A stretch of 64,000 bases of DNA from Rhodobiaceae bacterium (GTDB lineage Bacteria; Pseudomonadota; Alphaproteobacteria; Parvibaculales; Parvibaculaceae): positions 1,488,001 to 1,552,000 of the forward strand of contig CP030277.1 of the NCBI GenBank assembly GCA_003330885.1, in the 5' to 3' direction. The position numbers and the translations under genes were made by a program. The notes beneath the pieces are model-generated. The model worked only from the letters and a program-made list of their open reading frames with translations. It did not search any database and had not been told where the DNA came from. Of this stretch, positions 33,748-39,759 are shown piece by piece (the stretch's first letter is position 1; every line of letters begins with the position of its first letter).

Positions 33748-33990
33748 ATTGATCTCCCGTTACCTCGTGTCGGAGGCGGAGTGTGACGGTCTGCCCCTGG
33801 ATTCGCAAACCCGCGTTAACACTTGGACGTCCCTGTTTCATTTCAGAACACCGAAGGCCCAGCTGTTAACGAAGGGCGTTCCCGCACGACCCAGTATTCC
33901 TCTTTGCTAGCCCTACCTCCCACCAGCGAATTTCGCAAAAACAGCCCGAAAACTAGGGAATTTTGGGAAGTGTTAACGAGGACTGACGGG

Positions 33991-34006
33991 TGGCACACCC
34001 GTTGCA
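33991..34006 (+). promoter_or_regulatory. Sigma-54 (RpoN) promoter
   Basis: TGGCACACCCGTTGCA matches the sigma-54 consensus at the -24 (TGGCAC) and -12 (TTGCA) elements with exact spacing; only the seventh base differs. Transcription would start near 34017, giving a 30-base leader. Upstream, TGTTAACGA occurs at 33864 and 33971, and a third GTTAAC at 33815; they could be enhancer-binding sites. The rest of 33748-33990 holds no gene. Confidence 0.8.
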
Positions 34007-34046
34007 ACCATCTGGATGACTTTAACAGATGACCTAAGAAAAGATT

Positions 34047-34244
34047 ATGACAACCCGTTTTCCACAGCTCAGCCTCGCGATTGCCCTCGGCGCCGCATTG
34101 GCTCTTCCGCTTCTGACGGAAGATGTATTTGTGGCGAATGAAGGTACGGCTTCTGTTACCAGCGCAATTGGCACCCCAAACAACGACCAGAAAAATTCTG
34201 GCACGCCAGCTGCACTGTTCCTGCTCAACAACGAAAACAAGTAA
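34047..34244 (+). CDS. 65-residue exported N/T/S-rich peptide, HfaA-position gene
   Basis: 65 residues. A signal peptide occupies about residues 1-30 (hydrophobic LAIALGAALALPLL), leaving a mature part of roughly 35 residues rich in Asn, Thr, Ser and Ala, e.g. SAIGTPNNDQKNSG and FLLNNENK. No named family recognised. It is first in a sigma-54 unit and ends twelve bases before the CsgG/HfaB gene, the position of hfaA in Caulobacter-type holdfast-anchor operons. It could be a secreted subunit or an accessory of the pore; this is inferred from position. A short AAGAAAAG ribosome site is present. Confidence 0.65.
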   Translation: MTTRFPQLSLAIALGAALALPLLTEDVFVANEGTASVTSAIGTPNNDQKNSGTPAALFLLNNENK

Positions 34245-34256
34245 CGGAGAGATCCA

Positions 34257-35366
34257 GTGTTCTCTACGACAAAAAAAGCTCTCAGCTCTCAGAACGGCAT
34301 CAAGAAAGCCGCAATCCTGCTTGGTCTCGGCGTAGCGCTGACAGGCTGCATCAGCCCGACAGCAGGTAGCGACGGTCGTTATACGACACCGATCGGCAAC
34401 GCTCCGGTGATCAATAATGAGACACCTTATTCCAGCGCCCTGCGCTGCATCGGTAGCAGCATGGCTGGTACCGCAGCTGCACCGCGCATCGCTGTTGGCA
34501 ACATCAAGGATTATACCGGCAAGGTAGAACTTGAAGGTGGCGCAAAGCTGACCCAGGGCGCATCGCTTATGGCGATCTCAGGCCTCTCAAAGGCTGGCGT
34601 CATGCTAGTGGAGCGTTTTGACACATCAGTCGCAGAACTTGAGCTGAAATATGCCAATGATCGCCTGATCTCAGATGCAAACCCGGGCGAGTATCGTCAG
34701 ATCCATGCCGGTTCAATTCGCGGCTCCGACTATAACATGGTTGGCGGCATCACCGAGCTGAACTTCGACATCCGCAATGGCGGTCTGGACAGCGCGTTCT
34801 CTGATCTTGACCCAACAGGTCTGTCAGCAACCGTCAGCGGCCGTCTCTTTGTCATGAACGTTGGTCTTGACCTTCGTCTTGTCGACAGCCGCTCTTTGGA
34901 AGTTGTGCATGTTGTTTCCTACCAGAAGCAGATCATCGGTCGCGAGATTGTTGCGGGTGTGTTCGACTTCCTAAACGGCAACACGTTTGAGATTGGTGCC
35001 GGTGAGCGTGCCAATGAGCCACTGCAGCTTGGTGTTCGTTCTGTTATCGAACGCGCCATCCTGGAAATGATTGTGCCGCTCTATGGCACAAACCCAGCTA
35101 ACTGCACGAACTTCGGTTCGGATGGTGATCCGCTCGGCGAAATTCACTATCGCTCTGCGCCGCAGAACTATGGTGTGCAGCAGGCCGAGGTCACAGCACC
35201 AGCGCCGCAGGCTTATGCTCCAGCAGCACCTGCAGCCCGCACGGCACCGGTTCAACCACAGACGGTAGCAGCCCGCACGACAGTAGCTGCACCGATCATG
35301 AACGACCCGTATGGCTACTATTCTGAGCCAATCTTCTCAGACCGCCTGCGCAGCAGCCAGTACTAA
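34257..35366 (+). CDS. CsgG/HfaB family outer-membrane secretion lipoprotein
   Basis: 369 residues. Lipobox LTGC with Cys31 as lipidated residue after the hydrophobic LGLGVALTG. The CsgG domain covers about residues 60-285, with IAVGNIKDYTG, LTQGASLMAISGL, MVGGITELNFDIR, and VSGRLFVMNVGLDLRLVDSRSLEVVHVVSYQKQI (each in part). CsgG forms a nine-subunit pore for curli export and HfaB anchors holdfast proteins. The C-terminal 70 residues are Ala/Pro/Gln-rich and disordered. The GTG-like start lies directly after an SD (GGAGAG). A strong terminator follows. No csgE or csgF is evident. Confidence 0.88.
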   Translation: MFSTTKKALSSQNGIKKAAILLGLGVALTGCISPTAGSDGRYTTPIGNAPVINNETPYSSALRCIGSSMAGTAAAPRIAVGNIKDYTGKVELEGGAKLTQGASLMAISGLSKAGVMLVERFDTSVAELELKYANDRLISDANPGEYRQIHAGSIRGSDYNMVGGITELNFDIRNGGLDSAFSDLDPTGLSATVSGRLFVMNVGLDLRLVDSRSLEVVHVVSYQKQIIGREIVAGVFDFLNGNTFEIGAGERANEPLQLGVRSVIERAILEMIVPLYGTNPANCTNFGSDGDPLGEIHYRSAPQNYGVQQAEVTAPAPQAYAPAAPAARTAPVQPQTVAARTTVAAPIMNDPYGYYSEPIFSDRLRSSQY

Positions 35367-35510
35367 ACACTCCCCCATCCGGGAGAGTGACCTACAGCAA
35401 GACACGAAGACTAATTTCAAGAGCCGGCCCAAGGGAAACACTTCCCAAACGACCGGTGGATGAGGCGGCGCGCCTGCCCTTCCAACACCAAGTTCGTTGA
35501 GAGCAACTTA

Positions 35511-35538
35511 GGGAGAGCTTCGGCTCTCCCTCTTTTTT
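35511..35538 (+). terminator. Rho-independent terminator of the CsgG/HfaB unit
   Basis: GGGAGAGC-TTCG-GCTCTCCC, an 8-bp stem with UUCG loop, is followed by TCTTTTTT. It closes the sigma-54 unit. The rest of the 314-base gap 35367-35680 has no gene. Confidence 0.9.
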
Positions 35539-38267: not shown

Positions 38268-39296
38268 TTAGTAGCCAACGCCGCCGTTGAAGGTCGTCGC
38301 ACCGCGGAAGGCAGTTGTTTCTGATGCATAGCCACTTGATTTGCGGTTGAGGAACACCTCAGCATACCGAACATGTGATCTGCGATCAGAGCCTGCAAAG
38401 TAGGCATTGCTGCTTGGTCCACAAGCCAGACGCCCTTCATTCCCATAGTGAAGAGACTGGCCGTCCAGGCACTCTATCACCTGACCATGAGTATAGTCGG
38501 GCTGTCCGCCACCATCTGGCACTTCACCAATGGTCGCAACAAGCGCGTCGCCCATCTGGCAGTACATCAGTTCGCCGCTACCTGTCGCAATATCGATCTG
38601 AGAGGACGACACCGCAAGGTAAGCGGCTTCCTCAAGACCTTTCGCGTCAAGGCATACACCACGAACAGCACGGCTCTTGACCCGCTCTTCCTTAACAACT
38701 ACGCGCAATGGTCCAATGGAGATCGGTGCACGGGCGGCATTAACGATCGTGCCGCCGGCGCCACGGCGTTCTTCGCCAAACACATTGTTCCTCAAATTGC
38801 TGGTGTTCAACCGGCCACCAGCACGTGATGCTGCTGTTGCAGCACTCGTTGCTGCAGAATTCGCGATTGCCTCTGCAGCGGCGTTCGCGTTGGACGATGC
38901 GTTGACATTGACATCACCACCGCCTTCACCTCCACCATCGACATTGACGATGATGACGTTGTTATTATTGTTCGTGTTGTTGTTGTTATTCGTATTGTTA
39001 TTCGTATTGTTATTCGTGTTGTTGTTGTTGTTCGTGTTGTTGTTTTCGACGTCTACATCAACATCAAGGTCAAGCTTGACCTTGTTCCGAACATCCACGT
39101 TCACATCACCGCCGTCATCATCATGGCAGCCACAATCATCGTCCCAACCATCATCCCATTCGGGTTCTTCCCAACCGCCACCGCAGTCGTCTTCATACCC
39201 ACAAGCCTGTGCCTGGTCGGCGGTGAGGGTCATTACAATCGCACCTGCAGCGAACGCGAACAGGCCGAGAAAGAGAAATGTATAAAGTCGTGTCAT
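38268..39296 (-). CDS. Exported Asn/Thr-tract protein, candidate amyloid or adhesin
   Basis: 342 residues. Signal peptide 1-31 (ends DQAQA) leaves a mature N-terminus starting with Cys32. Residues 32-63 are Asp/Gly/Cys-rich; 64-84 alternate Asp, Val and Asn (DVNVDV); 85-113 are 24 Asn and 5 Thr with Thr at 88, 94, 98, 102 and 108; a Gly/Ser/Ala linker follows; and the C-terminal 170 residues are a cysteine-containing beta-rich domain. Eight Cys in the mature part fit disulfides. The DNA of the Asn tract (38958-39044) is a near-perfect AAC/AAT trinucleotide repeat. No family recognised. Confidence 0.85.
   Translation of the reverse strand: MTRLYTFLFLGLFAFAAGAIVMTLTADQAQACGYEDDCGGGWEEPEWDDGWDDDCGCHDDDGGDVNVDVRNKVKLDLDVDVDVENNNTNNNNNTNNNTNNNTNNNNNTNNNNNVIIVNVDGGGEGGGDVNVNASSNANAAAEAIANSAATSAATAASRAGGRLNTSNLRNNVFGEERRGAGGTIVNAARAPISIGPLRVVVKEERVKSRAVRGVCLDAKGLEEAAYLAVSSSQIDIATGSGELMYCQMGDALVATIGEVPDGGGQPDYTHGQVIECLDGQSLHYGNEGRLACGPSSNAYFAGSDRRSHVRYAEVFLNRKSSGYASETTAFRGATTFNGGVGY
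38958..39044 (-). repeat. Trinucleotide (AAC/AAT) repeat coding for poly-Asn
   Basis: 29 codons, 24 of them Asn, with Thr codons every four to six residues. Units of one codon can be gained or lost without breaking the frame, so the tract length may vary between strains. Confidence 0.9.
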
Positions 39297-39759
39297 TTTG
39301 GCACTCCGGAGAGCTGTTACTGCTCCATTTTTGGAGCTTTTGGGTTTCTTGACCCGATCAATGCAGATGCCATGCCGTTTTGTGAGAGCACCATCGTGTC
39401 CCTATTGCGGACCCGGGTCACGTACTTCTTTGCAACTTCACCGCCAGCACAAGCGTTAAAGGGTTAACGCGCTGAACCATCATGGAACCGATGCCACGCG
39501 CCCTCATTCCAGAAAAACAGAGGGAAACAGCCCATTCCGGAGGCACAGTTTCTCGCGTCACAGGCGCTTCGTTAAGTTTTGGCATGCTTTTCGCTGAGTG
39601 TTGGTCCAAGAAGGCCAGCGCCAGTCCCCACTGTTCTAAAACGGGATTAGTGCCGGTGGTATGAGACAGTTAGTAAGGGACCAGCGGTCGAGTGTTCCGG
39701 ACAGGGAGAGCAAAGATATGACATCTCTCTCCTACCGGCACCAAGATCTGGAAGTGTAA
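39297..39759. other. 463-base gap with no supportable gene
   Basis: The stretch is between two divergent starts. It contains the upstream region of the Asn-rich gene, an 18-bp palindrome GCGTTAA-AGGG-TTAACGC at 39453-39470, and a small GCTCC/GGAGC hairpin near 39330. An open frame of 60 codons at 39482 has no family or ribosome site that I trust. Confidence 0.6.

Follow-up and report, generated by a model that had tools for sequence, protein, structure and literature searches.

The surface anchor that retains the holdfast of Caulobacter has been described as HfaABD plus HfaE, the latter shown by holdfast shedding (PMC6372794). The periplasmic density of this anchor, beneath the outer membrane, consists mainly of HfaB and needs HfaB and neither HfaA nor HfaD; the targeting of HfaA and HfaD, in turn, depends on HfaB (PMC6707917). 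Here we describe an hfa-type locus in a 64,000-nucleotide stretch of the genome of a Rhodobiaceae bacterium (the window; positions 1488001 to 1552000 of a genome that consists of a single contig of 3.86 Mb), in which a sigma-54-type promoter is followed by a short gene for a 65-amino-acid signal-peptide protein and by a gene of the CsgG/HfaB type. The preliminary description of this locus saw in the peptide and the pore protein a minimal secretion or anchoring system. Our analysis leads us to favor, at somewhat better than even confidence, a reduced holdfast anchor (hfa) unit of the HfaB-HfaE type in a Parvibaculaceae-type alphaproteobacterium over a two-gene exporter of the peptide.

The window has in common with hfaABD of Caulobacter crescentus (CC_2628, CC_2629) an HfaB equivalog and the order promoter, small secreted protein, hfaB, and the hfa loci of Caulobacter sp. 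17J65-9 and 17J80-11 carry the same promoter element. It differs from the C. crescentus system in that the genome gives no match to HfaA or HfaD and in that a peptide without the curlin-like core occupies the hfaA slot. Escherichia coli CsgG belongs to the same family as the window HfaB (PF03783), but the window protein falls far below the cutoff of the CsgG equivalog.

Results

HfaB is present and HfaA and HfaD are not matched. The large gene of the unit, listed earlier as CsgG/HfaB, scored 368.7 bits against the HfaB equivalog model NF037935 (cutoff, 300), 22.4 bits against the CsgG equivalog model NF011731 (cutoff, 505), and 54.4 bits against PF03783 (cutoff, 20.8). A profile of 19 HfaB relatives matched CsgG chains in the Protein Data Bank with E values of approximately 1e-10. 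Inspection by eye placed a lipobox, VALTGC, at residues 26 to 31, with the cysteine aligned in the relatives whose N terminus is in the alignment. The ratio of nonsynonymous to synonymous differences per site (pN/pS) was 0.026 among four close relatives, and the structure model was poor, with a mean predicted local distance difference test (pLDDT) score of 50.6. By its profile scores, the large gene is hfaB and encodes the holdfast anchor lipoprotein. In the family, HfaB ends in an Ala/Pro/Gln-rich linker and a PYxYY tail (29 of 29 complete proteins, with PYxYYSE in 20 of the 29; positions 35301 to 35363 in the window), whereas DPSRW..RD is the usual ending in Caulobacterales-type HfaB proteins. 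Among named records, the closest hfaB genes were those of "Alpha proteobacterium Mf 1.05b.01" and of Rhodobiaceae metagenome bins. One family genome has a second, divergent HfaB-like gene (G013:C34:201729-202691; 37% identity), and in Halomonas alkaliantarctica (locus L022) a distant HfaB-like protein (40% identity) is encoded after a 261-amino-acid Asn/Ser-rich secreted protein, possibly an HfaB-type export pair beyond the Alphaproteobacteria.

Neither HfaA (NF037934) nor HfaD (NF037936) had a match in the window genome at an E value of 1, and both models matched the Caulobacter vibrioides control; this agrees with the earlier statement that an HfaD partner is absent. No other curli family appeared among 10 window proteins scanned against Pfam, and no search aimed at CsgE or CsgF, which are parts of the curli system and not of an HfaB-type one, was made. 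We then considered a set of 40 genomes of the family, including a Parvibaculum genome and a Tepidicaulis genome. Because HfaB was found in 36 of them, against two with HfaA (both Tepidicaulis-type) and none with HfaD over the cutoff (weak matches in six), the lack of HfaA and HfaD matches is, at the level of these models, the rule in the family.

A candidate partner lies downstream of hfaB. A gene convergent to hfaB and 2.9 kb downstream of it encodes a protein of 342 amino acids. The protein has an N terminus that is signal-like, a part rich in Cys and Asp, an extended Asn/Thr tract, and a C-terminal domain that contains four invariant cysteines and ends in GGVG. Nothing exceeded the Pfam or NCBIfam cutoffs for this protein (subthreshold matches were to MACPF, with an E value of 0.087, and to fimbrillin, with an E value of 0.034), and no solved structure was matched by the sequence of the four-cysteine domain at an E value of 1. 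The structure model of the domain (mean pLDDT, 68.7) gave no Foldseek match at an E value of ≤0.001 and VIA-align Z scores of ≤3.3, a comparison that excludes nothing.

The four-cysteine domain was present in 35 of the 40 family genomes, each time together with hfaB; four genomes had neither, including two that are incomplete (57% and 68%), and one (G009, 70% complete) had hfaB alone. The co-occurrence had a Fisher P value of 5e-5, in which kinship among the family genomes is ignored. In 32 of the 35 genomes with both, the two genes shared a contig, always in convergent orientation and 0.8 to 9.7 kb apart (median, 3.4 kb). The 14 genomes behind the named hfaB loci share two members with the family set, and 10 of the 14 had the domain. 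In seven of the 10 (two Caulobacter sp., Woodsholea, Tepidicaulis, Parvibaculum, and two bins), it was on the same contig as hfaB and at most approximately 11 kb away, with a distance of approximately 2 kb in Woodsholea, Tepidicaulis, and Parvibaculum and a position approximately 6 kb from hfaD in the two Caulobacter sp. In Euryhalocaulis caribicus it was approximately 42 kb from hfaB, and in two genomes the domain and hfaB were on different contigs. Most of the eight members examined had a signal-like start and a low-complexity middle of the VNVxV, SASA, or Asn-rich kind. One genome carries two copies of the four-cysteine gene with nearly identical domains (G047:C1:141578-142009 and 683877-684308).

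In Caulobacter, CCNA_02722 was named hfaE; it encodes a secreted protein of no known family, its deletion leads to holdfast shedding, and it is found in many stalked bacteria (PMC6372794). A list of proteins found specifically in Caulobacter, Oceanicaulis, and Maricaulis includes both CC2639 and CC2628 (PMC2241609), and hfaA, hfaB, and a choline dehydrogenase gene correspond to CC_2628, CC_2629, and CC_2642, respectively (PMC13001252). In the window, the third gene beyond the Asn-rich gene encodes a protein of the choline dehydrogenase type (NF002550; 793.9 bits; cutoff, 605). We take CCNA_02722 to be CC_2639, and hfaE presumably lies near hfaABD. Compared by description and position, HfaE and the Asn-rich protein are both secreted and without a known family, and the window protein is set apart by its long Asn-rich central stretch. 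Likened to HfaE by position, domain distribution, and description, and not by sequence, the Asn-rich four-cysteine protein probably is the HfaE of this organism.

The promoter element is conserved across hfaB loci. On direct rereading of the sequence, the coordinates and motifs given earlier were correct, including the exact spacing of TGGCAC and TTGCA at position 33991, with GG and GC 10 bases apart. The exact pattern TGGCAC-N5-TTGCA occurred once in the genome (both strands) and its reversed control not at all, and a relaxed pattern, TGGCAYN5TTGCW, occurred five times against once for the reversed control. Three of the five relaxed matches were inside long open reading frames (ORFs); those outside long ORFs on their own strand were the hfa site and one site before a cell-wall-hydrolase-like ORF. 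This second sigma-54-type site, TGGCACAGGCATTGCT (L060:1501-1516; G000:C1:264236), is approximately 111 nucleotides upstream of a 233-amino-acid ORF that by eye resembles a SleB/CwlJ-type cell-wall hydrolase.

The pattern TGGCA[CT]N5TTGC[ATG] was found within 600 nucleotides upstream of hfaB in 41 of 43 oriented loci, with 0.04 expected from order-1 shuffles, and the controls (the reversed pattern, the opposite strand, and equal-length stretches from 300 nucleotides inside hfaB) all gave 0. The 43 loci include near-duplicates (e.g., L006/L007, L010/L011, and L018/L019), and the 41 positives are not independent; L001, L008, L024, L025, L027, L028, L029, L033, L035, L050, and L053 had been left out before the count as copies or fragments. 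Rows of a separate 39-row promoter alignment, which is without L011, L013, L016, and L022, were picked by the pattern, so that its promoter columns are conserved. Because the element is found at nearly all hfaB loci at such an excess over expectation, the sigma-54-type site is, on the evidence of its conservation, a real promoter and no chance match.

In 10 of 12 loci inspected, the first gene of the unit began 24 to 51 nucleotides past the end of the promoter; it was hfaA in nine and a gene for a 157-amino-acid secreted protein in L012. Of the remaining two loci, that of Woodsholea maritima (L020) carries a pair of sigma-54-type sites, the first upstream of hfaA and the second 41 nucleotides ahead of hfaB, and L022 lacks a gene of this kind. 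Thus, hfaA stands directly behind the promoter in Caulobacter sp., Tepidicaulis, and others, and the peptide gene does so in the window, where 40 nucleotides separate the end of the site from the ATG; the spacing to hfaA is the same in two Caulobacter sp. and in Tepidicaulis. In the 15 Parvibaculum-type loci inspected, out of 21 other non-Tepidicaulis loci of the family, the site was 41 to 108 nucleotides before the aligned hfaB start, with no exported peptide between them. At the other end of the unit, where a strong terminator had been described, we found a terminator-like stem of nine pairs, AGGGAGAGC-TTCG-GCTCTCCCT, followed by CTTTTTT.

Two TGTTAACGA repeats and a third GTTAAC were located upstream of the promoter, as previously described. 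TTAAC recurs shortly before the TGG in 23 of the 41 loci, against 0.2 expected, and these are 23 of the 30 family loci and none of the 11 others. The distal GTTAAC is retained in four of five close relatives, the window copy counted, and the middle repeat reads GTTAAC in three and ATTAAC in two of the five, with TTAAC kept in all five within a poorly conserved stretch. The suggestion that the repeats bind an activator stands for the upstream copies, which could serve as an enhancer; for the TTAAC beside the -24 element, the short distance to the promoter would seem to argue against an ordinary enhancer. TTAA-N7-TTAA, which we take to be the consensus of the full CtrA site, is not matched by the promoter-proximal repeats on inspection by eye. 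Just upstream of TTAAC, many Parvibaculum-type hfaB promoters have an AAA run followed by a dyad like GCGGAnTTCCGC (positions 33940 to 33970 in the window), possibly a second regulator site.

That sigma-54 actually reads the hfa promoter would agree with this picture. The genome encodes FlbD (802.3 bits; cutoff, 750) and three further strong activator-type matches; the PF00158 activator model also matched all 14 control genomes, and two weak matches in the window genome (27.5 and 23 bits) were disregarded. In a screen of Caulobacter flagellar mutants, rpoN and tacA were among the regulators affecting adhesion, and the available text of that report is silent on hfaA and hfaB (PMC7885107). The literature that we consulted, which left out older papers on hfaA transcription, contained no statement on sigma-54 control of hfa in the text available. 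Shared sigma-54 control of the Asn-rich gene was considered and was not used: a site was present in five of 40 loci (0.13 expected), and four of the five were the window genome and three close relatives.

The peptide gene is conserved in one genus. A GTG codon at 34257, 12 nucleotides past the stop codon of the peptide gene, starts hfaB. The N terminus of the peptide is signal-like, which agrees with its proposed export, and the mature part, previously put at about 35 residues, is by eye nearer 40. An ORF of 65 to 70 codons with a conserved signal part was open in all seven genomes of the genus (the start in L005 was picked by eye). Over five close relatives, pN/pS was 0.25, with 0.09 in codons 1 to 25 and 0.35 thereafter, and 16 of the 28 variable sites were third codon positions. 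Because of this ratio and the third-position excess, we regard the leading gene as real: by its pattern of substitution, the peptide is translated and under selection, loosely so in the mature part. A 41-amino-acid ORF at 34016 that overlaps the peptide gene in another frame was set aside because the third-position bias favors the 65-amino-acid frame. The synonymous rate of the peptide gene (approximately 0.16) was half that of hfaB (0.32), and the mean difference in the 5' leader was 1.4%, versus 44% at -420 to -300, in an ungapped comparison of the five close relatives. The low synonymous rate and the nearly invariant leader hint at a constraint on the messenger. A structured RNA leader was not supported, with no Rfam match and a fold no better than that of shuffled sequences (z = -0.8).

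The peptide had no Pfam or NCBIfam match and was seen in one genus only, despite the presence of HfaB in most of the family. The versions in L004 and L005 were 31 and 45% identical to it, and the likeness was mostly in the signal part. The curlin-like core of HfaA, GNxxxVxxxGxxNTV...QxNxG, is absent, and a comparison by hhalign of seven peptides with nine HfaA proteins returned a probability of 0.9%. A likeness of the C terminus, LLNNENK, to HfaA ends such as ILNGELD was faint and not kept in L004 and L005, and it was dropped. The peptide would therefore count as a successor of HfaA in position and not demonstrably in sequence. The 157-amino-acid protein in the hfaA slot of L012 also lacks the curlin-like core, and it ends in ILNGGLALD, much like HfaA. 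Because this slot holds a core-less protein in L012 and the 65-amino-acid peptide in the window, it seems, from these sequences, to have been remodeled more than once.

Table 1. Features of the hfa unit and of the Asn-rich gene in the window
Feature	Position	Strand	Basis or remark
Distal GTTAAC	33815..33820		Within a stretch conserved in close relatives (33796-33825); GGTAAC in L021, GTTAAC in the other four
TGTTAACGA, middle copy	33864..33872		About 127 nucleotides upstream of the -24 element; possible activator site
TGTTAACGA, proximal copy	33971..33979		TTAAC at nearly the same spacing to the -24 element in 23/41 loci
Sigma-54-type promoter TGGCAC-ACCCG-TTGCA (TGGCACACCCGTTGCA)	33991..34006	+	Motif and footprint across hfaB loci
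5' leader	34017..34045	+	Nearly invariant in five close relatives
65-amino-acid signal-peptide protein, hfaA position	34047..34244	+	pN/pS, seven-member alignment
hfaB, CsgG-family outer membrane lipoprotein, LTGC lipobox, Cys31	34257..35366	+	NF037935, PF03783
Intrinsic-terminator-like stem-loop and T run	35510..35538	+	Stem 35510-35531, read from the sequence
Asn-rich secreted protein, C-terminal four-Cys domain ending in GGVG	38268..39296	-	Probable HfaE-type anchor partner
Weak sigma-54-like site TGGCGG-TGAAG-TTGCA before the Asn-rich gene	39431..39446	-	GTTAAC at 39463-39468; site shared by three close relatives

Discussion

The scheme that we consider reasonably likely is as follows. RNA polymerase with sigma-54 and an enhancer-binding activator would transcribe both genes, that of the peptide and hfaB, from a single promoter, and HfaB, by analogy with Caulobacter, would form the base and the pore of the anchor as a CsgG-type outer membrane lipoprotein. 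HfaA and HfaD, the usual surface parts, would have been lost from the genome. The Asn-rich four-cysteine protein would be exported in an HfaB-dependent manner, take over the surface-linking role, and tie a polar polysaccharide to the cell. This polysaccharide may come from one of the two polysaccharide export clusters in the genome; a candidate source is an exopolysaccharide cluster (L073; G000:C1:1119001-1138500) with Wza-like, Wzc-like, WcaJ/HfsE-like, and PgaB-like deacetylase genes. The 65-amino-acid peptide would be a genus-specific product of the hfaA slot that leaves the cytoplasm by means of its signal peptide and most likely either has an accessory role at the HfaB pore or has succeeded HfaA in shortened form.

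Several observations weigh against such an anchor. We know of no holdfast in the Rhodobiaceae source organism, and a paper on "Ca. Phaeomarinobacter," possibly a relative, never uses the word holdfast. The HfsE-like protein scored below its cutoff (324.8 versus 750). The promoter element is missing at L013 and L016, and the match at L022 sits inside an upstream ORF and is not countable as a promoter. Only three close relatives share the sigma-54-like site that precedes the Asn-rich gene, and it is missing in a fourth, L093. The linkage to hfaB within the family is partly plain synteny, since hfaB is also linked to dsbA and a rhomboid gene, and four of the 14 genomes behind the named hfaB loci are without the four-cysteine domain. 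The identification of HfaE draws on position, domain distribution, and the presumed identity of CCNA_02722 and CC_2639. In Caulobacter, the hfaA, hfaD, and hfaAD deletion mutants also retain the holdfast poorly (PMC6707917), so that an anchor without HfaA and HfaD is not expected to work there.

How the peptide is to be understood separates two of the alternatives. The two-part exporter of the preliminary description, in which HfaB pushes the peptide through its pore to decorate the surface, draws on the tight unit that the two genes form, on the signal peptide and the purifying selection, on the 40-nucleotide spacing that the peptide gene has in common with several hfaA genes, and on the need of Caulobacter HfaA for HfaB to reach the outer membrane (PMC6707917). 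The peptide is not seen beyond one genus, however, although 36 of the 40 genomes of the family encode HfaB; even the L004 and L005 versions agree mostly in the signal part, and the peptide has neither a curlin-like core nor a profile resembling that of HfaA. In other family loci inspected, the promoter stands directly before hfaB, or before hfaA in Tepidicaulis, and a better candidate partner is encoded 2.9 kb downstream in the window. We therefore do not retain the peptide and HfaB as a whole minimal system and regard this exporter as improbable. It is also possible, though doubtful, that the peptide is left over from an hfaA gene in decay or that it is a leader whose translation serves only to set that of hfaB, the protein itself being idle. 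The hfaA position, a 12-nucleotide junction that suits coupled translation, the almost invariant leader, the synonymous rate at half that of hfaB, and the drift of the mature part (pN/pS, 0.35) are in its favor, but an idle protein fits poorly with pN/pS values of 0.09 in the signal part and 0.25 overall and with a frame open in seven of seven genomes of the genus, and RNA structure did not exceed chance.

A further alternative leaves the holdfast aside: HfaB could have been retained for a different task in the envelope, for example to export an unrelated fiber or to hold polysaccharide at sites off the pole. In keeping with this, the genome has no HfaA or HfaD match and the family few, no holdfast is described for these bacteria in the literature that we looked up, and the distant HfaB-like gene of Halomonas follows the gene for an unrelated Asn/Ser-rich protein. 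Against it, the window protein exceeds the HfaB equivalog cutoff and stands behind a conserved hfa promoter, HfaB co-occurs with the probable HfaE partner, and polysaccharide clusters are present; we consider such a role quite unlikely. A more far-reaching form of the HfaB-HfaE anchor, which we put forward only tentatively, is that HfaB and the Asn-rich HfaE-type protein make up, with no HfaA or HfaD, the self-sufficient core of the holdfast anchor of alphaproteobacteria, driven by a sigma-54 promoter of ancient origin, and that the slot behind the promoter is a testing ground in which small exported pore-associated proteins (HfaA, the repeat-less HfaA-like protein of L012, and the 65-amino-acid peptide) come and go.

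The locus thus appears to be a variant of a known holdfast anchor system, to which the promoter footprint and a probable partner are added beyond the preliminary description. A family in which HfaB and a probable HfaE are mostly retained, and HfaA and HfaD are not, amounts to a natural knockout, and it shows which parts of the anchor may be core. The promoter element at 41 of 43 hfa loci leads to the hypothesis that production of the anchor may be tied to the same sigma-54 activators that control the genes of flagellum and stalk.

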